A stretch of DNA of 52,972 nucleotides from a virus. A program made the translations under genes and the position numbers. The notes beneath the pieces are model-generated. The model was not told the DNA's origin and ran no database searches. It saw only the letters and a list, made by a program, of their open reading frames with translations. Below are positions 7,331 to 38,228 of the stretch, in pieces. The stretch's first letter is position 1; the number at the start of each line of letters is the position of its first letter. The stretch is from positions 1 through 52,972 of IMG/VR virus record IMGVR_UViG_3300013014_000039; one strand, 5' to 3'.

Positions 7331-10300
7331 ATGGCGACATACCGCGCAAAGGGTGCTGACGGTAAGGCATATCGCTTTGATGGCCCGCCCGGATTAAGTA
7401 CGAAAGAAGCATCGTTCTTTTTAGATCAGTATCTAAACATGGGCGGTATGGAGCCAGAACCTGCTCCTCTTGCTCCCGTAGAACAAAAGGGAGAAACTGG
7501 CTTCATTCCATCCGTCATACGCGGTGGTCGCGGCATCACATCTCTATTAGGTGACGTTGCTCCAGCCATGCTTGGTAAGGCAGTTGGTGCTAATGACTAT
7601 GCAAGACGGCAAATGGAAGAGGCTGCTGCATACCAGAAAGAAACTGAAAGACTTTATCCCGCAGAAGTTGCGTCATACAAAGATATCGATAGCGTTGGCA
7701 AAGCGCTAACCTATGTAAAAGAGTCGATTGGTGAAGCACTACCGTCCATATTGCCAAGCGTTCTTACTGGTGGACTAGCTGGCGTAGCAGGTCGTGGCGC
7801 ACAGGCTGCTGCTATGCAGGCCGCAGAACAAGTGGCAAGTCGTGGCGTTGTAAAAGCTATGGAAGCAGGGCCAATCCAAGCCGCTACTCTCGAAGCCATT
7901 AAAAAACAAGCATTAGATGCTGGTATAAAAGAAGCGCAAAAGATCGGGTTGAAGTACCAAACCGCTGGCGCGTTGGCTGGCTCTGCGGCACAGAACGTCC
8001 CTGACGTTTACCAAAACATTTATGAGGCGACAGGTAAGCAAGACCTTGGCGCGGCTCTAGCATTCGGTGCGTTTAACTCTGCGCTAGATGCAATTACTCC
8101 TATTGCTTTGTTACGCAAGATGTCTAAGGCTGGAGTCAGCCCAGAAGAAGTTGCAGCCGCGTGGTACAAGCGTGCGGGCAAAGGCGCAGTCCAAGGCTTT
8201 ATCTCTGAGGGTGGCACTGAGGCGCTACAGGAAGTATCGTCTGCTGCGGCTGAAAAGTTTGTTGACAAGAACCAGCAGTTTTTCTCCGAGAAGAACTTTG
8301 AGCGATTCATCAATGCAGGTCTAAAAGGTGGCTTTGGTGGCGCAGGTATAACTGCGGCTACTGATGTAGCGTTTGGCAAGGGCCCAACAGCACCACCTTC
8401 TACAGAGACACAAACACAACAAACTCAACAGGAAGTCCCACCCGGCGGAGAGATAACAGATGAAACTACGCCCGAGACGCCGCTACCACCCGGTGGCAAG
8501 GGCATGGCCTTTACTGGCAATGAAACACTAGAAGCCCTTCCAGAAGGGTTTGTTATGCCTGCGGCTCCTGCTGCGGCAACTACTCCTAATATCGATGCAA
8601 AGCAAGCAGACTACGATAATCGCGTAAAAGAAATTGCAATCCTACAAAGCAAACCTTCTTTAACTGAACAAGAAGCTGGGCTTTTAAAAGGGCGTATAGC
8701 AAAAAACGAAAGAATAAAGGCAGAAATAGACGCTGAACGCGCCGCGCTTGCAACAAAAGCGGAATCTTTTGGGCGTTATGGCGAAGAGTCTACAACAGGA
8801 GGACAAGATGCTGGACAACCTATCGCTCAAACAGGTGGAGAAGGCGCTAGCGTACCTGGCGCAACCGATACAAACGCACCCGCCGGAGGGACTGGAGGAG
8901 CTGAATCCACAGGAATGGTTCGTCCTGGAGAGAATGCTACAGGCGCTGATCTCGGAGAAGCTACACAGTCCGCTCCAGTAAATTACACAGTAGCTGATTT
9001 ACTTGCGTCTGGGGAAGCGGATCAAGATGTACCTGACTTCACTGCACCACCTGCGGCAACGGCTGAAGCACCTAAACAAGAAGCGCCAGTTAAAAAGTTT
9101 GACTTACGTAACAGACTAGAAGAATTCAAGAAAAAGAAACAAGACAAACTTCCGTCTAAAGGCGAAGGGTTTGATCCTGAACTGCTTGAATTAGCAGCCG
9201 ATGCAGAAGTAGATGCATCTAAGTATGATGACGAAGAATCTTTAATAGCAGCGATTGAAAGTTCGCTTGCTGAGTTAGATTCTTTGAAGAATCGTATATC
9301 TCCCGCAGTTGTTAATGCTTATGAAGCGGCGGCTGCTGAACACAACGCAAAATTTAAAGCCAAAGCTGCTGGCACAGTAACGCCTAAATTTAGTGACCTT
9401 TTAAGAGAAAACCCAGATGCTGTAAGAATCTTTCTTAGCAACATAACTGGGCCTGATATAACTCCATCTGCCTTATCTACAAAAACACCAGAGCAAAGAC
9501 AGGCAGCCATAGATAGCGCGGTTCAAAAAGTAGGTGAGCATCTAGATAAAAAGCGTTCGCAGTCGGAAGCAGTTGGCAGGCAAGCTACGCAACTTGGACA
9601 AGACAAAGAAGCCACGCAAACATTGGCTAAAGCCGACGCTGCTATGGGTATACGCTATGAAGACCAGCGCAAACTGTTCCCATCTATTGGCACGTTACCC
9701 CCTTGGGAAAGTTTATCTAGAGCCAGTAAAAATCTATTTGGTTCAGCAAACGTAAACGATACTGTTTTAGAGCAGGCTTTGGCGTTGAACCTTGTCAAAG
9801 AACAAGTAGAACTAGAAGCCAAAGGCGAGAAAGCTAAAGATGCCGCTACTGACGCGGAAGCAATAGCCATAGGACAGATGTATCGTCAAGCGCAACAAGA
9901 GCGCAAGAATCAGCCAGCAGGTAAAGGCAGTTTGTTGCCGTTAGGTATTCTTGTTAAGTTGCGCCGTGGTGATGTCAAGGCTGCTTTAGAGTATCTTAGA
10001 CAAGACGCCAAGGGTATAAAGATTGGCAAGTCTAAATTTGGGCGTGTGCGCTATGGCTACACAGTCACTGAAATCAATGACGATATAAAAGACGAAGTGC
10101 CATTCAAGATTGGCAACGTATTGAGTCTGGGCGACTTTGAAGCCTACGCTGATAGATATGGCGACTCATTCACAGTTGAAAAAAGACAGATCAGTAATAA
10201 CACGCCACAGCAGCAAGCATTGATGGCTAACAAAGTATTTTCTTCGTTGGTTTTCAAGAACCTTGCTGAAAAACTGTTAGACATAAAAGACTTCAAAGTC

Positions 10301-13300
10301 AACGTTGCGTTTGATCCAAAACTTGTATTTAACACAATAGGTGAGTACAACTACAGAACAAACACTGTAATCCTTGGGCCATTCGGACTCGATGAGGCGA
10401 CGCTACTGCACGAGCTTACGCACGCTGCAACTGTCAAACTCATCAATAAATACTATTCTGATCCAGACTCGCTGACCAAGAACCAGCGCGAAGCTATTAA
10501 GCATCTGGAAGATATTGCCTCTGTTGCTAAGTCAGTTATCACTGCTGACAAGTACAAGAATGCATTTGACAACTTGTATGAGTTCGTGGCTTACGCCATG
10601 ACTGACCTAGAGTTCCAAAACGAACTGCATAAGATACAAAAGCCTAGCCTTACTAAATACACAAACAAAACTGCGGAGCAAGACCCTGAGTTGGTTGAGC
10701 GCCGTGAACGTGCTTTGCGCGGGTACGAAAACTTGTTTGACACCTTATGGGGTCAGTTTGTTGGCGCTATTGCGCATCTATATCAGTTGTTCCGGCCTAA
10801 CGCAAAAGTTACCAAATACTTAGTTGGTTCAGAGAACTCTAAAGATGACGCAGCTGCTATACAAGACATGAGAGAGCGAGAAGCGTGGGAGACTCAAGTA
10901 CGCGACGGCGCTAACAAAAAACTTCTTGCGGATGCGATTGAAAGAATTAAAGCTGAAGTAATTAACCCAGCGGCAATGTCTTTTGTCGGTAGAAATTCTG
11001 CAAGCACTAATACTGCATTAACAGAAGACTCTGGTGCTGTAAGACAAGCTAAACAACTTATAGACAAGTACAACAAAAAATTAGTTGTTGTATCTGAAGC
11101 AACGCGCAATCCAACAGGCGTCGAGAAAAGAAGAGGCATTAAGAGGGTTGTTGGCGTCTATCAACTGTTTGATGAAATCAACAAGATTGCTGCTGGGATT
11201 GGCATAACAAAACTTGGGCTAACTCCAGCGCGTTTAGGTTCAATGGCGCAGAAAACGCCAACTGAGTTTTCAGAGGCTAAAGGTTACGAAGCGCCGCGCA
11301 AAACTAAAAAACAAAAAGACGAAGAACTTTCTGAACAAGAAAGAATTGACGCCGCTATGGAGTTGGTGGAAAAAGAATCACGCGGCGAATTAACACCTGC
11401 TGAAAAAGCGGCGTTTGATCAAGAAGCGTTATACGATAACCCTGAAGAACTAGCTAAAGAAGCCGCTATAACAAAAGGCGGTGAGGGTAAACCTAAAGAT
11501 ATAACAAGCCAATTATTCCGCAAGGCTGGAGTAACTAATCTAGATCGCATCCGTAACACTGAGCCAGGATATCGGGGCAACGCTTTGATGGAATTGTTCA
11601 TGGCTACGGAAGATATTCTTGCCGCGCCTGAAGGTGGTATAACTAAACTTGCTGGCAAAGAAGGCTTTGGAGACACACTGCCATCTAAGGGTTCTGCTAA
11701 AACAGTTCAGGCCACCACACCAGGTCAGCAGTCTGCTGAACAAATGACAGCAGAAGCTGAGAAAAACGTAGAGCTTAAAGACCGCACACCTAAAGTATTC
11801 TTTAAGAACTTGTTTACCAAGAAGGGCTTCCAGTCCGCAGTTGAGTTCTTCCAGAATGACCGCTACCTATTAAAGGTATTGTTTGACCGTGCCCGCATGT
11901 TTGGTCTTGTGACTGCTGTAGGTGAAAACGCTAATGATGTCTACAACGCTTTCAGCCGTTCTATTGGTATAGCCGTACATAAGTACAACACTGAAGTGCG
12001 TTCAGAAAGTATTGCTGTAGACAAAGCGGTAGAAGCCTATGCAGCAAAACTTGGCATTCCTGTGAAGGAAGCACTATCTAAACTGCATCTAATAATGCAG
12101 GCTCGCCATGAGCCAGAGCGTCGCCACGTCAAGTACCTGTTGAATGTGCCGTTGGATGACAACCCAACTTACAAGATAGGTAACGAGTACTACGCTGCGG
12201 CTACTATCCGTCAGAACATTATCGATACACTCACAGAGCCAACACCCGGTTTGACTGACGAGCAACGCACTGCTCGCGCACAGAAACTGCGTCAGATGCT
12301 TGAGACCATAGTAGCTGATCCTAAGTCCCGTCTAAAGATTAAAAAAGATAAGAATGGTAAGACTGTACCTGTAGAAGCAGCATATTTTGATGAGTCTAAC
12401 GAAAGATACAACGTGATTGCTGGTCGCTCACCACAAGAGATACAAGCATTCAGAGATACATTAGACCGCCCAGAATACAAGGCAGAGATCGATGCTGTGT
12501 CACAAGCACTGCGTGATCTGAATAAGAAAACAATCAAGCTCAACAAAGAAGCCAACTATTGGTCTGAGCCTGTTGCAAACTTTGTAGACTTCTACGGGTT
12601 CAAAGACTATGTGCCGTTCAAGGGTAGACCAGAAAACCGTACGATTGACGAAGAGTTTAACTTTGACGGTAGGCGTCTAGGCGGTGAGTTCACAAAACTG
12701 CAAGACCCGTTCAAGGGTCGTATGTCTGAATCTGAAAACCCAATCCTTCAGTCACTTGCTGACGGAGCATCTGCCGCACTAAATGCGGGGCGCAAGATAT
12801 TGCCTGAGACTATCGTCAACGCAATCAAGTCTGGGATCATCAAGGGCGAGTTTAAAGATACTATTAAGTTCTCTGATCGCTATGCTGGTCGTACAACTAG
12901 AACAGACATTACAGGTCCAAACAAAATCTTCTTGTACAAACCTGATGGCACTATTGATGTATGGCAAATTAACGGCAAGGATATGGCTGAAGCCATCAAG
13001 CGTAGTACAAAGACAACCAACCCACTGATTAACATGGTCGATCAGATCACTAGCGGTATTGGTCAGACACACACTCGCTACAACCCTGCTTTCGCGCCGA
13101 TGAACTTTGTGCGAGATTCATTCACTAACGCTGGAATCATTGGCGCTGAGTTTGACCCTGTAACAGGCGGTAAGTTACTTAGCGGTATGGCATCTGATGT
13201 TGCCAACAACGGCCTTGCTAGAGCGCTGAACTATTCAAGACTCTACGCTGACGGTAAGTTTGATGAGATAAAACGTCTTGCAGGTGGCAGTAAACCTTAC

Positions 13301-14872
13301 GAAAGCCTAGACGAACAAGAGCGTTACTACCGTGATCTGGCTGATTATGTCGAGATGGGTGGTCGCGTTTCTTATCTGCAAGGCGTTGCCGCTAGAGGTG
13401 CGCTAGATGAACTTATTAAAGAAGTCGGTCGTTCTGGCATTCTCAAGAAGAAAGACCAAGTAGATAAATTCATCGACATCTATAACGACATGTTTGAATT
13501 GTCCAGCCGTGTAGCGGCCTATAGATTGATCAAGGATGAGTACTACAACCAGAACTTGAAGAACAAGATGAATCCCTCAGAGGCAAAAGAAGACGCAAGG
13601 ATTCGTGCCGTTGAGTATGCTAAGAACCTTGCCAACTTCGAGCAGATCGGTCGTTGGGGTAAACAGGCTGGTGCGCTATTCATGTTCTTCCGTCCTGCCG
13701 CTACTGGTGCTGTCCGTGCTATCGAGGCGCTGGCTCCTGCATTTAGTTTTAATGAAGAGCAGTTCCGCAAGGAAGCTGAAGCTGAAGGTCGCACTAAAGC
13801 GCAGATTGACCAAGCTGTCGAGATTATGAATGAGCGTCAGTACGCTGCACGTCGCATGATGGCTACTATGGCTGGCATCGGTGTGGCGTTCTACATGATG
13901 GCTCTGATGATGGCTGGTGACGATGACCAAGGTCGCAACCGTATCGCTACAGATGATATGGCGCGTTGGACTCGCTACGCTAGATTCTTCATCCCAGGAA
14001 TTGAGAACCCAATCCAGTTGCCTTGGGGCTTCGGGCCTGGTGCTTTTGCATCTGCTGGCTCTCAGATTGCGGCTCTATCCACTGGGCGTGTGTCTATTGC
14101 TGAAGCATTCTCTAACATCATGACTGTCGGTATGGACTCGTTCTTGCCGCTGCCAATCTCGCGCATCAGTCCAATAGAAAACTTCCCTGCATGGGCTATG
14201 GACTCAGTAACTCCATCTGCATTCCGTCCGTTCTTTGAGTACGTGATGAACATGGATGGTTTGGGTCGTGAGATTTACAACAATCGTCAGACACGCTTTG
14301 GTGATGCATACACAGGTGGTGACAACATCCCTGAAGCCTATAAGATGGCGGCTCGTATGCTGTTTAAAGCAACTGATGGTGCAGTTGACTGGAGTCCAAA
14401 CACCATGTACTTCTTCGCTAATAACTATGCTGATGGTGCGGCAAAGATGGCTACGGCAGTTACTAACCTTGGACTAACAGTAGCAGGTCAAAAAGGGTTT
14501 GACCCAAAGAACGATATACCGTTTATTGGTAGTTTTATCGGCACTAAGTCAAACATAGATGCCCGCGAGTTCAGCAAAGTTGAAGAGCAAATCAAAGGGT
14601 TTGATAAACGCATCAACGCGCTAAAGGACAAACCAGAGTTGTTAAGTAGTTACTTAGACTCACACCAAGACGAGTATGCTGCGGTTCAGTTTTACAATCA
14701 TCAAGTCAACGGTCAACTAAGACAGTTACGTGCGGCTGCTAATCAGATCAGAGCTAGCGATGAGTTGACTCCACGTGAACGCAAACTCCAGTTAGAAGAA
14801 ATAAATGGCATGTCAAACATTGTCAAACGTCAACTACTGGATATGTTTGCGGAGATGGGTATCAAGCCTTAA
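7331..14872 (+). CDS. Giant polyvalent ejection protein with zincin metallopeptidase motif and LPD38-like region
   Basis: A single 2513-residue frame. The N-terminus (MATYRAKGADGKAYRFDGPP) is followed by amphipathic glycine/alanine-rich segments at about 130-300. Residues 1027-1031 are HELTH, and E1084 lies in NLYEFVAYAMTD, the HExxH...E pattern of a gluzincin-type zinc peptidase. Residues about 1895-2140 (NPAFAPMNFVRDSF, then SSRVAAYRLIKDE and ANFEQIGRWGKQAGALFMFF) resemble the large polyvalent protein-associated domain 38 (recalled). A probable membrane segment lies near 2175-2195 (MATMAGIGVAFYMMALMMAG). Polyvalent proteins are thought to enter the host with the DNA and act at once. It ends the rightward structural run, and its stop overlaps the convergent replication gene. 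Peptidase activity and ejection are inferred. Confidence 0.75.
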   Translation: MATYRAKGADGKAYRFDGPPGLSTKEASFFLDQYLNMGGMEPEPAPLAPVEQKGETGFIPSVIRGGRGITSLLGDVAPAMLGKAVGANDYARRQMEEAAAYQKETERLYPAEVASYKDIDSVGKALTYVKESIGEALPSILPSVLTGGLAGVAGRGAQAAAMQAAEQVASRGVVKAMEAGPIQAATLEAIKKQALDAGIKEAQKIGLKYQTAGALAGSAAQNVPDVYQNIYEATGKQDLGAALAFGAFNSALDAITPIALLRKMSKAGVSPEEVAAAWYKRAGKGAVQGFISEGGTEALQEVSSAAAEKFVDKNQQFFSEKNFERFINAGLKGGFGGAGITAATDVAFGKGPTAPPSTETQTQQTQQEVPPGGEITDETTPETPLPPGGKGMAFTGNETLEALPEGFVMPAAPAAATTPNIDAKQADYDNRVKEIAILQSKPSLTEQEAGLLKGRIAKNERIKAEIDAERAALATKAESFGRYGEESTTGGQDAGQPIAQTGGEGASVPGATDTNAPAGGTGGAESTGMVRPGENATGADLGEATQSAPVNYTVADLLASGEADQDVPDFTAPPAATAEAPKQEAPVKKFDLRNRLEEFKKKKQDKLPSKGEGFDPELLELAADAEVDASKYDDEESLIAAIESSLAELDSLKNRISPAVVNAYEAAAAEHNAKFKAKAAGTVTPKFSDLLRENPDAVRIFLSNITGPDITPSALSTKTPEQRQAAIDSAVQKVGEHLDKKRSQSEAVGRQATQLGQDKEATQTLAKADAAMGIRYEDQRKLFPSIGTLPPWESLSRASKNLFGSANVNDTVLEQALALNLVKEQVELEAKGEKAKDAATDAEAIAIGQMYRQAQQERKNQPAGKGSLLPLGILVKLRRGDVKAALEYLRQDAKGIKIGKSKFGRVRYGYTVTEINDDIKDEVPFKIGNVLSLGDFEAYADRYGDSFTVEKRQISNNTPQQQALMANKVFSSLVFKNLAEKLLDIKDFKVNVAFDPKLVFNTIGEYNYRTNTVILGPFGLDEATLLHELTHAATVKLINKYYSDPDSLTKNQREAIKHLEDIASVAKSVITADKYKNAFDNLYEFVAYAMTDLEFQNELHKIQKPSLTKYTNKTAEQDPELVERRERALRGYENLFDTLWGQFVGAIAHLYQLFRPNAKVTKYLVGSENSKDDAAAIQDMREREAWETQVRDGANKKLLADAIERIKAEVINPAAMSFVGRNSASTNTALTEDSGAVRQAKQLIDKYNKKLVVVSEATRNPTGVEKRRGIKRVVGVYQLFDEINKIAAGIGITKLGLTPARLGSMAQKTPTEFSEAKGYEAPRKTKKQKDEELSEQERIDAAMELVEKESRGELTPAEKAAFDQEALYDNPEELAKEAAITKGGEGKPKDITSQLFRKAGVTNLDRIRNTEPGYRGNALMELFMATEDILAAPEGGITKLAGKEGFGDTLPSKGSAKTVQATTPGQQSAEQMTAEAEKNVELKDRTPKVFFKNLFTKKGFQSAVEFFQNDRYLLKVLFDRARMFGLVTAVGENANDVYNAFSRSIGIAVHKYNTEVRSESIAVDKAVEAYAAKLGIPVKEALSKLHLIMQARHEPERRHVKYLLNVPLDDNPTYKIGNEYYAAATIRQNIIDTLTEPTPGLTDEQRTARAQKLRQMLETIVADPKSRLKIKKDKNGKTVPVEAAYFDESNERYNVIAGRSPQEIQAFRDTLDRPEYKAEIDAVSQALRDLNKKTIKLNKEANYWSEPVANFVDFYGFKDYVPFKGRPENRTIDEEFNFDGRRLGGEFTKLQDPFKGRMSESENPILQSLADGASAALNAGRKILPETIVNAIKSGIIKGEFKDTIKFSDRYAGRTTRTDITGPNKIFLYKPDGTIDVWQINGKDMAEAIKRSTKTTNPLINMVDQITSGIGQTHTRYNPAFAPMNFVRDSFTNAGIIGAEFDPVTGGKLLSGMASDVANNGLARALNYSRLYADGKFDEIKRLAGGSKPYESLDEQERYYRDLADYVEMGGRVSYLQGVAARGALDELIKEVGRSGILKKKDQVDKFIDIYNDMFELSSRVAAYRLIKDEYYNQNLKNKMNPSEAKEDARIRAVEYAKNLANFEQIGRWGKQAGALFMFFRPAATGAVRAIEALAPAFSFNEEQFRKEAEAEGRTKAQIDQAVEIMNERQYAARRMMATMAGIGVAFYMMALMMAGDDDQGRNRIATDDMARWTRYARFFIPGIENPIQLPWGFGPGAFASAGSQIAALSTGRVSIAEAFSNIMTVGMDSFLPLPISRISPIENFPAWAMDSVTPSAFRPFFEYVMNMDGLGREIYNNRQTRFGDAYTGGDNIPEAYKMAARMLFKATDGAVDWSPNTMYFFANNYADGAAKMATAVTNLGLTVAGQKGFDPKNDIPFIGSFIGTKSNIDAREFSKVEEQIKGFDKRINALKDKPELLSSYLDSHQDEYAAVQFYNHQVNGQLRQLRAAANQIRASDELTPRERKLQLEEINGMSNIVKRQLLDMFAEMGIKP

Positions 14873-34716: not shown

Positions 34717-34744
34717 TAGCGTTTCACGGTGTCATGAAACGCTA
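34717..34744 (-). promoter_or_regulatory. Perfect TAGCGTTTCA-N8-TGAAACGCTA hairpin/operator
   Basis: A perfect 10-bp inverted repeat with an 8-base centre between two early genes, and the most symmetric member of the dyad family. No sigma-70 boxes are seen next to it, so here it more likely acts as RNA structure or operator than as promoter. Confidence 0.6.
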
Positions 34745-35129: not shown

Positions 35130-35147
35130 TTTCATGACCCCGTGAAA
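35130..35147 (-). promoter_or_regulatory. TTTCA-N8-TGAAA dyad element
   Basis: TTTCA (35130-35134), spacer TGACCCCG, TGAAA (35143-35147). It lies in the leader, 22 bases before the start of the 113-residue gene. The same spacer is found in the copy at 35745. Confidence 0.55.
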
Positions 35148-35162
35148 TGTTATTTAGCGGGT

Positions 35163-35184
35163 GAGTCAGGCTACCTCCCGACTC
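35163..35184 (-). other. 5'-terminal leader hairpin
   Basis: GAGTC / GACTC stem (6 bp with flanking T-A) and a 12-base loop, starting 7 bases after the -10 box of the promoter at 35192. Confidence 0.5.
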
Positions 35185-35191
35185 AATTCAG

Positions 35192-35220
35192 ATTTTACCA
35201 CAGTTACTTGTTTAATACAA
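35192..35220 (-). promoter_or_regulatory. Sigma-70-like early promoter
   Basis: TTGTAT (35215-35220), 17 bases, TAAAAT (35192-35197) on the minus strand. The -35 equals that of the promoter at 36546-36574. It would drive the 113-residue gene and its followers. Confidence 0.6.
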
Positions 35221-35282
35221 GTCTTTATACAACTTTTTTATATCGCTCTGGCGGGTGTGATTTGGTTATTTGTAAAGTGGTG

Positions 35283-35740
35283 TTGGAACTTTGGAACTGG
35301 GTTGGAATCACAAAAAACTAGGTTAGTTATAGTAATAGTACTAGTAGTAGTAGTAGTAGTTATAGATATAGATATATAAAGTATTATATATATTTGTTGT
35401 AGTACTACATGATTCCAAAGTTCCAAAATTCCAGCAGTTTTGCGTTATGGCTGGCAGTTACCTATCTGCTTAATTTGTGGGCAATGTATGGTTTGTTTAG
35501 CACAATGCTTACACTCGCAGGCGATGATGAACGAACGAGATGATGCTCCAAAGTCCGTTGTCCTCAAAAAAAACTGGAATTTTGGAATAAATCGCGTAAG
35601 TCCTTGATTCATAAGGCTTTTTCCGATTCCAGCGTTGGAATTTCGTTGGAACAAAGTTGGAATCTTGTTCCAATAAACTGCTCGGTTCCAAAATTCCAGT
35701 ACGATTCCAAGCGGGTTGGAACTGGGTTGGAACTTTGGAA
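35283..35740. repeat. TTGGAA iteron array with AT-rich segment; candidate origin of replication
   Basis: Fifteen copies of TTGGAA or its complement lie between 35283 and 35740 in a gene-free stretch. Copy starts are 35283, 35291, 35302, 35413, 35421, 35582, 35635, 35646, 35657, 35668, 35686, 35705, 35716, 35727 and 35735. Several neighbours are exactly 11 bases apart, others 8, as expected if proteins bind on one face of the helix. Between the copies lies a TAG/TA-rich tract at 35325-35400 that should melt easily. Iterons plus an AT-rich element is the usual make-up of a replication origin. A partition or transcription control site is possible. The region 35221-35744 shows no believable gene. 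Confidence 0.6.
35325..35400. repeat. TAG/TA simple-repeat AT-rich tract
   Basis: Runs of TAGTAG and TATAGATATAGATATATA within the iteron region, nearly free of G+C. It is a likely DNA-unwinding element if this is an origin. No reading frame is supported. Confidence 0.6.
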
Positions 35741-35744
35741 CAAA

Positions 35745-35767
35745 TTTCATGACCCCGTGAAACGCTA
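35745..35767 (-). promoter_or_regulatory. TTTCA-N8-TGAAACGCTA dyad at the iteron boundary
   Basis: TTTCA (35745-35749), TGACCCCG, TGAAA (35758-35762), CGCTA. It directly adjoins the last iteron. Unlike the copies at 36577 and 37453 it is not followed by a recognisable promoter. Confidence 0.5.
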
Positions 35768-35790
35768 TTTAAGACGCTTGCCCACGCACG

Positions 35791-35814
35791 CGCAGGGACA
35801 TATAACTGGCTTCA
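35791..35814 (-). repeat. Inter-cassette box A, copy 4
   Basis: Divergent copy of the box whose minus-strand core reads CCAGTTATwTGTCGTCG in the best copies, lying between a terminator and a dyad element. See copies at 36620, 37498 and 38169. Confidence 0.5.
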
Positions 35815-35822
35815 GCCCAAAC

Positions 35823-35858
35823 AAAAAAAACCCGACTAACCTTTCGGCTAGTCGGGTT
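35823..35858 (-). terminator. Intrinsic terminator of the 204-residue gene
   Basis: Stem AACCCGACTA / TAGTCGGGTT with a loop that can add a CC/GG pair, followed on the minus strand by eight T. It lies just after the stop at 35873. Confidence 0.8.
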
Positions 35859-35872
35859 GGGCTAATCAAGTA

Positions 35873-36487
35873 TTACTTGATTGCTTTCAGGAAGGCATCA
35901 ATTGCCACCCTTGTCTTAACTTCGTCGGCTGTTGCGTCACCCCTAGCCTTCGCGTTCTTACATCTAGTTTTAATTGTATCCATAACTTTCCCAACATAAG
36001 TTGCGAAGTCATCAGTAGTTCCTCTCTCCCTTGTCTCAGGGTTAAGGTCGCGTATAGCCTTGAGCAAAGCCTTCATTTTATTGAATGCATACTTGTTGAA
36101 TGGTGTTCTTACACCACCAATCACACCATGCTTAACAGGCTCGGCTTGGCGTAGTTGCCCAAATTGTTGTTGCGAGAACGACAAGGCATAGGCAAGGGTT
36201 ACTTCATTGCCACCCTTGGCATCAGGAATCCATTCGCTGTTATAGCGTTTGGCTGGGTTTAGTTCTTGCCAACGGAGAGCCCAACCCTCGGTTAACTGAG
36301 CCTTAACCTCGGCTGGAACATCTTCCAAGATGTTGGGGCATTGGTCGAAAACATATTTAGCAACAAGGCTAAGATGTTCAACGGCTAATGCCGACTGGTA
36401 ACCCGCATTCTTGAGGTTATCGATAGAGAGAAATGTAACTTGCGTTACGCTAGGTGTGGCTAATGCCACAGGTGATTTTGCTTTCAT
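35873..36487 (-). CDS. Cassette gene, paralogue A of a tandem pair (204 residues)
   Basis: A 204-residue, helical, basic protein starting MKAKSPVALATPSVTQVTFL. I chose the ATG at 36487 with GGAGAAC upstream. The frame extends further but would start inside the promoter. It shares SFSQQ-FGQL, an HG...FNKYA-N segment, RERG and KNA-ARGD-TA with the 218-residue protein encoded next to it. No domain is recognised. It is a monocistron with its own promoter, leader hairpin and terminator, which suggests high early expression. A DNA-binding or host-takeover role is speculative. Confidence 0.65.
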   Translation of the reverse strand: MKAKSPVALATPSVTQVTFLSIDNLKNAGYQSALAVEHLSLVAKYVFDQCPNILEDVPAEVKAQLTEGWALRWQELNPAKRYNSEWIPDAKGGNEVTLAYALSFSQQQFGQLRQAEPVKHGVIGGVRTPFNKYAFNKMKALLKAIRDLNPETRERGTTDDFATYVGKVMDTIKTRCKNAKARGDATADEVKTRVAIDAFLKAIK

Positions 36488-36514
36488 TGTGTTCTCCATT
36501 AAAAGCAGGTTTGT

Positions 36515-36538
36515 GCAGGTGACAACCTCGCCACCTGC
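36515..36538 (-). other. 5'-terminal leader hairpin
   Basis: Perfect 7-bp stem GCAGGTG / CACCTGC with a 10-base loop. It starts 7 bases after the -10 box at 36546, so it should form the 5' end of the transcript. Confidence 0.6.
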
Positions 36539-36545
36539 TAAACAT

Positions 36546-36574
36546 TTATTAGCACAGGCAAGGCGCTTATACAA
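36546..36574 (-). promoter_or_regulatory. Sigma-70-like promoter of the 204-residue cassette gene
   Basis: TTGTAT (36569-36574), 17 bases, TAATAA (36546-36551). The dyad element at 36577 lies 2 bases upstream of the -35 box. Confidence 0.6.
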
Positions 36575-36576
36575 GT

Positions 36577-36599
36577 TTTCAGCCACCCGTGAAACGCTA
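36577..36599 (-). promoter_or_regulatory. TTTCA-N8-TGAAACGCTA dyad upstream of the -35 box
   Basis: TTTCA, GCCACCCG, TGAAA, CGCTA. Spacing to the -35 box is 2 bases, as in the copy at 37453, consistent with an activator or repressor site. Confidence 0.6.
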
Positions 36600-36619
36600 A
36601 ATAGGCGCACGCATACACG

Positions 36620-36643
36620 CGCGACGACATATAACTGGTCTCA
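36620..36643 (-). repeat. Inter-cassette box A, copy 3
   Basis: Minus-strand core CCAGTTATATGTCGTCGCG between the terminator of the upstream cassette and the dyad element. A G/T-rich stretch links the two. Confidence 0.65.
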
Positions 36644-36651
36644 GCGGGCAC

Positions 36652-36685
36652 AAAAAAACCCCGCAGACCTTGTGAGTCTGCGGGG
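36652..36685 (-). terminator. Intrinsic terminator of the 218-residue gene
   Basis: Perfect 10-bp stem CCCCGCAGAC / GTCTGCGGGG with a 7-base loop and a run of seven T on the minus strand. Confidence 0.85.
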
Positions 36686-36696
36686 TGAGTAGCTAA

Positions 36697-37353
36697 TTAC
36701 TTAGCGTTGTAGACTTTCCAGAACGCGTCTCTTGCAGTTCTGAACTTAGCGGGGTTCGCGGTATCGTCACCGCGACTTTCAGCGTTCTTTACGCGCTTGT
36801 CATAGTCAGCGAACAAGTCAGTCAAAGACTGAATGAAAGCTTTTGTAGCACCGCGTTCGCGGGTCTTACCCTCATTCAGAATGTTATAAGCTGACCGCTT
36901 TAACGCTGTCAAATTATTTGACGCGTATTTGCTGAACTTATCGCGCATAAGCTTGACTAGTCCATGTAGTTGTGGGTCTTTGTTTTTCAGTTGACCGAAC
37001 TCTTGCTGACTGAATGAGTAGCAGTAATGCAAACTCAATGTAGTAGACCCTTTAGGGTATTCAGCTTGTCCATCAAGCGAGTTACCCGCTTTAATGAGTA
37101 CACCGCTTTCACCGCGTGTGAAATAGTCCTGACCCCACAATTCATGAGCGCGTGTCATGAAACCCGCATACAAGTCAGCTTTGAGTTCAGCGCTTGTCTC
37201 AGCGGGAAACGATGGGTCTTGACCCATCACATAGGTTGCAAGGTGTGTTGCAGTTTCACCAGCACGAGCGAAGCGGTAAGCCGCATCTTTAATACTGGTG
37301 GGTTCGGTTGCCGTCAAAGCGATATCGGCAGAAGCTTTAGCTGTAGCTTTCAT
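36697..37353 (-). CDS. Cassette gene, paralogue B of a tandem pair (218 residues)
   Basis: A 218-residue protein. The alanine-rich N-terminus (MKATAKASADIALTATEPTS) is followed by YSFSQQEFGQL, HGLVKLMRDKFSKYASNN, TRERGA and KNAESRGDDTA, shared with its neighbour. It is not a known family to me. AGGAG precedes the ATG. It is a monocistron between its own promoter (37422-37450) and terminator (36652-36685). Tandem duplication with separate control suggests two diverged products needed in quantity. Confidence 0.65.
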   Translation of the reverse strand: MKATAKASADIALTATEPTSIKDAAYRFARAGETATHLATYVMGQDPSFPAETSAELKADLYAGFMTRAHELWGQDYFTRGESGVLIKAGNSLDGQAEYPKGSTTLSLHYCYSFSQQEFGQLKNKDPQLHGLVKLMRDKFSKYASNNLTALKRSAYNILNEGKTRERGATKAFIQSLTDLFADYDKRVKNAESRGDDTANPAKFRTARDAFWKVYNAK

Positions 37354-37398
37354 GCTAACTCCTAAAAACGCGGTGTGAGCGACACCGCAAACGCTGAC

Positions 37399-37414
37399 CA
37401 GACTGAACTGTCTG
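37399..37414 (-). other. 5'-terminal leader hairpin
   Basis: CAGAC / GTCTG stem with a 6-base loop, starting 7 bases after the -10 box at 37422. Confidence 0.5.
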
Positions 37415-37421
37415 ATAATTA

Positions 37422-37450
37422 TTTATAGCTGACCCTGAAACAATATGCAA
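37422..37450 (-). promoter_or_regulatory. Sigma-70-like promoter of the 218-residue cassette gene
   Basis: TTGCAT (37445-37450), 17 bases, TATAAA (37422-37427) on the minus strand. The dyad element lies 2 bases upstream. Confidence 0.7.
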
Positions 37451-37452
37451 GG

Positions 37453-37475
37453 TTTCAGCCATCCCTGACACGCTA
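37453..37475 (-). promoter_or_regulatory. TTTCA-N8-TGACACGCTA dyad upstream of the -35 box
   Basis: TTTCA, GCCATCCC, TGACA, CGCTA. One mismatch from the consensus dyad, same position relative to the promoter as at 36577. Confidence 0.55.
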
Positions 37476-37497
37476 ATTAAGCACACGCACAGACGCA

Positions 37498-37521
37498 CGC
37501 GACGACAAATAACTGGTATCA
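37498..37521 (-). repeat. Inter-cassette box A, copy 2
   Basis: Minus-strand core CCAGTTATTTGTCGTCGCG, identical in this stretch to the copy at 38169. It lies between a terminator and a dyad. Confidence 0.7.
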
Positions 37522-37533
37522 AAAACTTCAGGC

Positions 37534-37569
37534 AAAAAAAAACAGACATGGCGCAAAGCCATGTCTGTT
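37534..37569 (-). terminator. Intrinsic terminator of the 155-residue gene
   Basis: Perfect 12-bp stem AACAGACATGGC / GCCATGTCTGTT, 5-base loop, then seven T on the minus strand. Confidence 0.85.
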
Positions 37570-37577
37570 AGCGTACG

Positions 37578-38045
37578 TTACTCTTCGCAAACGTATTTTG
37601 TAGTTAACACTTCTTTCATCTCGCGTTTAACAACCACCTTCTTACAAGTGGGACTATCTTCTTTCACGTATGCAATGATCTCGAATTGAATCTTGTCTGA
37701 CTCTATGGTGTAACGCTTGTAACCCCAATCCGCTACATCGCGCTCTTCTACATCATTGCCAATCACATCCATACACTTGGATATCAACGAAGTTAGACGC
37801 TCGTCTTTAAGACTATCTAACTTGTACAAGTACGCAGAGATGTAAGGCTTCTTACCAATCCATGACATGCTGAGAGAGTCGTTATCCCCATCAAATCCAT
37901 CAACAAGTGAACCGTACAAGGCACGTAATAGCATACGATTTTTTTGCAAATCCTGCGCTTTGTGTAAGTACATTTGTGATTCACTTCTATAAGAGTTGAT
38001 TTGAGAGTTGATCAATTTAATGATCGGGTTTGATTTACGTTTCAT
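37578..38045 (-). CDS. Cassette gene, 155-residue hypothetical protein
   Basis: A basic protein with a helical N-terminal half (MKRKSNPIIKLINSQINSYR) and a beta-rich, charged C-terminal half ending TTKYVCEE. No domain is recognised. GGAG precedes the ATG. Like its two neighbours it is a monocistron with its own promoter (38105-38133), leader hairpin and terminator. It shows no clear similarity to the paralogous pair. Confidence 0.6.
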   Translation of the reverse strand: MKRKSNPIIKLINSQINSYRSESQMYLHKAQDLQKNRMLLRALYGSLVDGFDGDNDSLSMSWIGKKPYISAYLYKLDSLKDERLTSLISKCMDVIGNDVEERDVADWGYKRYTIESDKIQFEIIAYVKEDSPTCKKVVVKREMKEVLTTKYVCEE

Positions 38046-38078
38046 TTAATACTCCAAAAAGTTAAAAGATAATTACCT

Positions 38079-38098
38079 ACTGATTTGTCTGAATCAGT
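38079..38098 (-). other. 5'-terminal leader hairpin
   Basis: Perfect 7-bp stem ACTGATT / AATCAGT with a 6-base loop. It starts about 7 bases after the -10 box at 38105. Confidence 0.6.
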
Positions 38099-38104
38099 AT
38101 TATT

Positions 38105-38133
38105 TATATAGCGGTTAAATAGATATTTTGCAA
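38105..38133 (-). promoter_or_regulatory. Sigma-70-like promoter of the 155-residue cassette gene
   Basis: TTGCAA (38128-38133), 17 bases, TATATA (38105-38110). A degenerate remnant of the dyad (CTAGCCATTGG) lies upstream where the other cassettes have a full copy. Confidence 0.65.
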
Positions 38134-38168
38134 ACATCTAGCCATTGGATCGCACACGCCCATACTCA

Positions 38169-38192
38169 CGCGACGACAAATAACTGGTATCA
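38169..38192 (-). repeat. Inter-cassette box A, copy 1
   Basis: Minus-strand core CCAGTTATTTGTCGTCGCG between the terminator at 38201 and the promoter at 38105. Confidence 0.7.
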
Positions 38193-38200
38193 ACTGGGCG

Positions 38201-38228
38201 AAATAAAAAGGGAGCCGAAGCTCCCTTT
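38201..38228 (-). terminator. Intrinsic terminator of the first leftward operon
   Basis: Perfect 9-bp stem AAAGGGAGC / GCTCCCTTT, CGAA/TTCG loop, then a T-rich tail on the minus strand, just after the stop at 38231. Its stem resembles the late terminator at 47749. Confidence 0.8.

Follow-up and report, generated by a model that had tools for sequence, protein, structure and literature searches.

Related systems

In T4-like phages, PeSLs or mobile regulatory cassettes (Arbiol et al. 2010; Comeau et al. 2014) are described in PMC4503421 and PMC3950731 as a repeated early-type promoter with a stem-loop/terminator that lies between small genes without known function and mediates gene shuffling among related phages. 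In the archaeal myovirus HGTV-1, a conserved motif with a promoter-like box and an inverted repeat precedes many ORFs, and has been proposed to serve transcription and shuffling alike (PMC3950731). Campylobacter group II phages carry repeats with a conserved core, some of them enclosing genes, at rearrangement borders (PMC4546147). A first-pass annotation of the DNA studied here, which found an array of similarly framed small genes, knew of no described system with this layout, but PeSLs and mobile regulatory cassettes work similarly (PMC4503421).

The nearest known system is the PeSL of T4-like phages. As in PeSLs, a host-type early promoter and a terminator/stem-loop stand between small genes, and copies of a motif mark gene-exchange boundaries, though not the only ones. 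The PeSL motif is itself a promoter-terminator composite, whereas here a separate 28-bp box (box A) is conserved and promoter and terminator vary. The units here also form a compact array whose genes almost always come from the same two families. Finally, PeSLs are carried by T4-like myoviruses, whereas the terminase of this phage shows no T4-like relation, its nearest matches being in podovirus-like phages, HTVC027P and DSL-LC04 among them. Because two defining features of PeSLs are absent, we do not file the array as a member.

Other systems are further removed. The HGTV-1 motif has a TATA-like box within it and stands before most ORFs on one genome side, whereas box A is separate from the promoter and present in 2-4 copies. 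The Campylobacter repeats are numerous, each 72-86 bp long with a 13-bp core, and separate large genome modules; unlike the array here, they form no promoter-gene-terminator unit. Morons are additional genes, expressed from a prophage and inserted between neighbours that adjoin in relatives. Each has a promoter and a terminator of its own, like every gene here, but morons have no long conserved box in common and are dispersed among prophages, whereas we find a conserved array in apparently lytic phages. Integron cassettes, in which a promoterless gene goes with a folded attC site and a tyrosine integrase, were rejected because the units carry their own promoters and the box does not fold.

A tandem array of single-gene units

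The window, that is, the whole 52,972-nt record analyzed, carries on its minus strand, from ~38.2 to 35.7 kb, three framed single-gene units encoding proteins of 155, 218 and 204 aa. Each unit opens, after the previous gene's terminator, with box A, followed by a G-rich stretch and usually by a dyad; next come a sigma-70 promoter (17-bp spacer), a leader hairpin, the gene and its own terminator (Table 1). This layout agrees with the first-pass claim that the three genes share one frame, except that a clear dyad is missing from the 155 aa unit.

Table 1. Features of the array, with positions in the window.
Feature	Position	Strand	Remarks
Terminator of 83 aa gene, upstream array border	38207..38228	-	inverted repeat AAAGGGAGC..GCTCCCTTT, read from sequence
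Box A copy 1	38166..38193	-	after 83 aa gene's terminator, before 155 aa gene; exact consensus-core match
Sigma-70-like promoter, 155 aa gene	38105..38133	-	TTGCAA-17-TATATA; read from sequence, supported across relatives
Leader hairpin, 155 aa unit	38079..38098	-	fold
F2 gene, 155 aa	37578..38045	-	two invariant cysteines in family
Terminator of 155 aa gene	37541..37569	-	
Box A copy 2	37495..37522	-	before 218 aa gene; crossover site in the window; exact match, junction alignment
Imperfect dyad upstream of 218 aa gene promoter	37453..37470	-	TTTCAGCcatcCCTGACA
Sigma-70-like promoter, 218 aa gene	37422..37450	-	TTGCAT-17-TATAAA; read from sequence, supported across relatives
Leader hairpin, 218 aa unit	37399..37414	-	inverted repeat CAGACtgaactGTCTG
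F1 gene, 218 aa	36697..37353	-	
Terminator of 218 aa gene	36658..36686	-	
Box A copy 3	36617..36644	-	before 204 aa gene; exact in 17-bp core
Dyad upstream of 204 aa gene promoter	36577..36594	-	TTTCAGCcaccCGTGAAA
Sigma-70-like promoter, 204 aa gene	36546..36574	-	TTGTAT-17-TAATAA; read from sequence
Leader hairpin, 204 aa unit	36515..36538	-	fold, z -2.86
F1 paralogue gene, 204 aa	35873..36487	-	
Terminator of 204 aa gene	35829..35858	-	
Box A copy 4	35788..35815	-	degenerate terminal copy, without gene; 3 mismatches in 17
Terminal-flank dyad, then no promoter	35745..35762	-	TTTCATGacccCGTGAAA

Three exact box A cores (CGACGACAWATAACTGG on the plus strand) lie at 36622-36638, 37500-37516 and 38171-38187, and a fourth at 35793-35809 has 3 mismatches. 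Shuffled sequences gave 0.13 matches on average and never four, confirming the repeat; all four copies are on one strand, and the whole record has no box A outside the array. Aligning the flanks gave 42 nt at 93, 71 and 62% identity between copies, and one 56-nt stretch at 80%. The flanks had earlier been judged far more alike than two of the genes they carry. They do align, but the 218 and 204 aa proteins are themselves paralogues (37% identical), in a family we name F1. The 155 aa protein (F2) has no similarity to either, so the window's array, box-F2-box-F1-box-F1-box, involves only two gene families.

Box A in related phages

The cassette idea put forward in the first-pass annotation depended on box A recurring in related phages, and two pattern scans of IMG/VR found it at no fewer than about 150 loci. 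Among the IMG/VR matches listed, a locus typically has 2-4 copies, ~840 bp apart and on one strand. When 25 whole records were tested, 24 had 2-3 boxes, nearly always on one strand, and the reversed box pattern matched none of the 25. The 179 non-redundant sites among the matches listed give a 28-bp consensus, TTGATRCCAGTTATNTGTCGTCGCGCG, in which conservation is highest in the middle and drops sharply at both edges; positions fixed by the search patterns are biased toward conservation, and adjacent positions outside the patterns are conserved as well. Boxes within one phage are more alike than boxes between phages (exceeded in 0 of 500 permutations), which fits gene conversion or phage-specific recognition as candidate causes.

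Two 22-23-base box patterns had zero matches in 84,980 bacterial and archaeal genomes, leading us to reject a bacterial origin of the box. No convincing match was found in the phages and plasmids searched, and the box is absent from the related cultured phages checked (HTVC027P, DSL-LC04 and 023Pt_psg01). A role for box A as a folded RNA was likewise rejected (mean z -0.2 across relatives), and no Rfam family reached its gathering score in the array region. Two loci, L015 and L028, each match the 17-mer of the box once and have no F1 or F2 close by; this is probably a chance match within a gene.

Two gene families fill nearly all units

Among the matches listed, 186 units are complete from box to box: 156 contain F1, 21 contain F2 and 9 were left unassigned. 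These nine comprise two F1 genes with mis-called starts, one likely and one possible remote F1, and five units with other small genes (at L039, L047, L082, L126 and L144). With F1 or F2 in 177 of the 186 units and clearly other genes in about five, the array does not behave as the landing site for arbitrary or early genes that the first reading had proposed. The number of units per array varies from 1 to 3, and the frequent arrangements are box-F1-box and box-F1-box-F1-box, each with or without F2 in front. In a tree of F1, members from first and last positions are intermixed in several clades, indicating that whole units were duplicated more than once.

Neither family has relatives in cultured phages, a consistent Pfam, PHROG or NCBIfam family, or a structural match at E<=0.001; the best structural match of F2, DNA polymerase mu (TM 0.38-0.39), lay above that threshold and was rejected. 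In F2, C134 and C153 are kept in all 28 aligned members despite low overall identity.

Transcription signals around the box

In relatives, the 70 nt upstream of the box form a terminator-like fold (mean z -3.0, with 65 of 90 below -2), and the predicted transcript folds more stably than shuffled sequence over its first 50 nt (mean z -2.2). The sigma-70-like promoters of the earlier reading are borne out there too, with a mean promoter score of 8.3 at 30-80 bp downstream of the box versus 4.5 in shuffles; a strict consensus promoter scan of the window did not list the three unit promoters. Dyads occur 45-100 bp after the box in 125 of 333 cases versus 15 of 333 in shuffles, and their arms vary from phage to phage. 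When conservation is anchored on the box, the box alone is conserved and the terminator and promoter columns are not. Spacing from box to promoter is variable; a helical phasing of the two, seen in the full set, was lost once relatives were thinned, and was rejected. From the sigma-70 promoters and their position, we infer that the array genes may be early.

We found no phage RNA polymerase in this phage, and therefore assume that the host enzyme transcribes the array. For the same reason box A was rejected as a phage RNA polymerase promoter, and N4-type early promoters were set aside because the virion RNA polymerase that goes with them was not found in this phage. A 2513 aa protein (7331-14872) does match a virion RNA polymerase PHROG, over a limited stretch only. 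It has no match to a solved vRNAP chain, its translation shows no polymerase motifs by eye, and its phage matches are virion/ejection proteins. The protein looks like a large internal virion protein with a HELTH metallopeptidase-like motif, a resemblance that makes the vRNAP family name misleading.

Sequence exchange at boxes

Comparison with two related loci, L044 and L031, places a junction at box 2. On the upstream side, F2 and its terminator included, the window matches L044 at 95% identity, against 54-58% for L031, and the F2 proteins of window and L044 are 100% identical. On the downstream side it matches L031 at 94-98% identity, against 53-59% for L044. The 28-bp box itself is identical in all three, and only there and in a few bases after it do both parents match the window fully. 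By this pattern the window is a recombinant mosaic with its crossover inside box 2; as the box is conserved in all these phages, the breakpoint can be placed no more finely than to within the box. At 35818, on the edge of the terminal box, the window becomes similar to L044 again, so the entire F1 block between two boxes differs.

We then found 15 contig pairs, the window's included, in which similarity (stretches of >=300 bp at >=85% identity) begins between -4 and 0 relative to a box start and is preceded, across an abrupt junction, by unrelated DNA. Given 72 ends of this kind lying within 1 kb of a box, about one pair would be expected; by our reading the 15 go back to about six independent events. 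In five contig pairs, similarity ends 29-51 bp past a box start. Together, the window mosaic, the box-edge pairs, the varying number of units and the repeated duplication of F1 support the exchange-cassette part of the earlier proposal. Two results count against this reading: a scan for reciprocal junctions showed no enrichment at boxes (1 of 20, the window's), and other gene borders near the array break as well. At L071, L078 and L116, reciprocal mosaic junctions recur ~230 bp upstream of the first box, apparently another exchange border.

The box could instead be purely regulatory, exerting control from upstream through a conserved factor of the phage or the host, with the apparent exchanges at boxes being ordinary mosaicism that happens to fall between genes. 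Its conservation far exceeds the needs of occasional exchange, most reciprocal junctions lie away from boxes, and a conserved box will extend alignments to its edge regardless of the true breakpoint. Since 15 pairs nonetheless break abruptly at the box edge, and the identity shared by the window's two parents is confined to box 2 and its immediate border, we regard this explanation as possible but unlikely.

We consider it extremely improbable that box A is the site of a specific enzyme, for site-specific recombination or packaging. The motif is long and asymmetric with its most conserved part in the middle, exchanges fall at its edge, and the terminase genes start ~1.1 kb away; but homology alone explains the junctions, a packaging site repeated between genes would be unusual, and no integrase or recombinase was found among the window proteins scanned.

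The terminal box and an origin-like region

The fourth flank was first described as standing without a gene, and it is indeed present as a degenerate box with a dyad. It is not an emptied slot, however: a gene-less last box is conserved in relatives (74 or so loci at least), making the window's empty flank the normal architecture. In relatives this last box has no promoter above background, so the coupling of box and promoter is not strict, which counts against the reading that we favor below. Beyond it, relatives have ~650 bp of noncoding DNA and then a leftward operon. The noncoding region contains an AT-rich part and phage-specific repeated 7-mers (~9 copies versus 3 in shuffles), and in 70 of 74 regions a GTAAGTNNTTGATT motif at <=2 mismatches (13 of 74 when shuffled).

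These surroundings bear on a further explanation, that box, G-rich stretch and dyad belong to the adjacent origin-like region, for instance as initiator or polar fork-barrier sites, their proximity to promoters being secondary. The terminal box and dyad adjoin an iteron-rich, AT-rich region without a promoter at this same minimum of about 74 loci, the boxes nearly always share one orientation, and dyads are found again in the replication operon's leader. Against this, the boxes span ~2.4 kb between genes, always right after a terminator, and each internal box is followed by a strong promoter. We judge a replication element very unlikely.

In the window, positions 35160-35744 are noncoding and origin-like: TTGGAAC/GTTCCAA repeats are numerous, the core is AT-rich with TAG repeats, and the conserved GTAAGTNNTTGATT motif is present. 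Among relatives, the repeated 7-mer after the terminal box varies by phage (TGTTCTA, TGTTACA, ATTCCAG and others) while the layout is constant. A dyad, TTTCAYG-N4-CRTGAAA, occurs at 34722-34739, 35130-35147 and 35745-35762, so that the leftward replication operon has it in its leader and again between its first genes; relatives have different dyad arms at equivalent places, as if for a phage-specific regulator.

Discussion

The explanation that we favor, and consider probable, is that the array consists of tandem autonomous expression units whose conserved upstream element doubles as a homology patch for swapping; both roles are read from sequence evidence. The array would be a set of single-gene transcription units for two small phage-specific families, F2 and then one or two F1, each with its own host sigma-70 promoter, a 5' transcript hairpin that probably stabilizes the mRNA, and an intrinsic terminator. 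Between the previous terminator and the promoter, box A, the G-rich stretch and the usual dyad would together form the conserved upstream element, to which a putative protein probably binds. Since every unit begins with this 28-bp box, which all phages of the group have in common, the box could serve as a patch of homology, and recombination at boxes would duplicate, remove or swap units, or replace DNA upstream of the array. While the exchanges are seen as sequence junctions, the enzyme responsible would presumably belong to the phage's own recombination functions. The phage encodes a PD-(D/E)XK exonuclease resembling phage recombination exonucleases, which could act at short homologies; this speaks for the explanation, as does the greater likeness of boxes within one phage.

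A stronger version, in which box A is the dedicated site of a putative protein that both controls the units and directs exchange, as a specific system and not passive homology, strikes us as doubtful. If true, this group of uncultured phages would possess a specific system for exchanging cassettes.

On the favored explanation of autonomous units with a homology patch, a highly conserved 28-bp sequence at the head of tandem expression units would mark places where a widespread uncultured phage group, unrelated to T4, trades DNA. The idea that regulatory sequences act as shuffling points would thereby extend past the T4-like phages, and the array offers a concrete element and two protein families for testing it.
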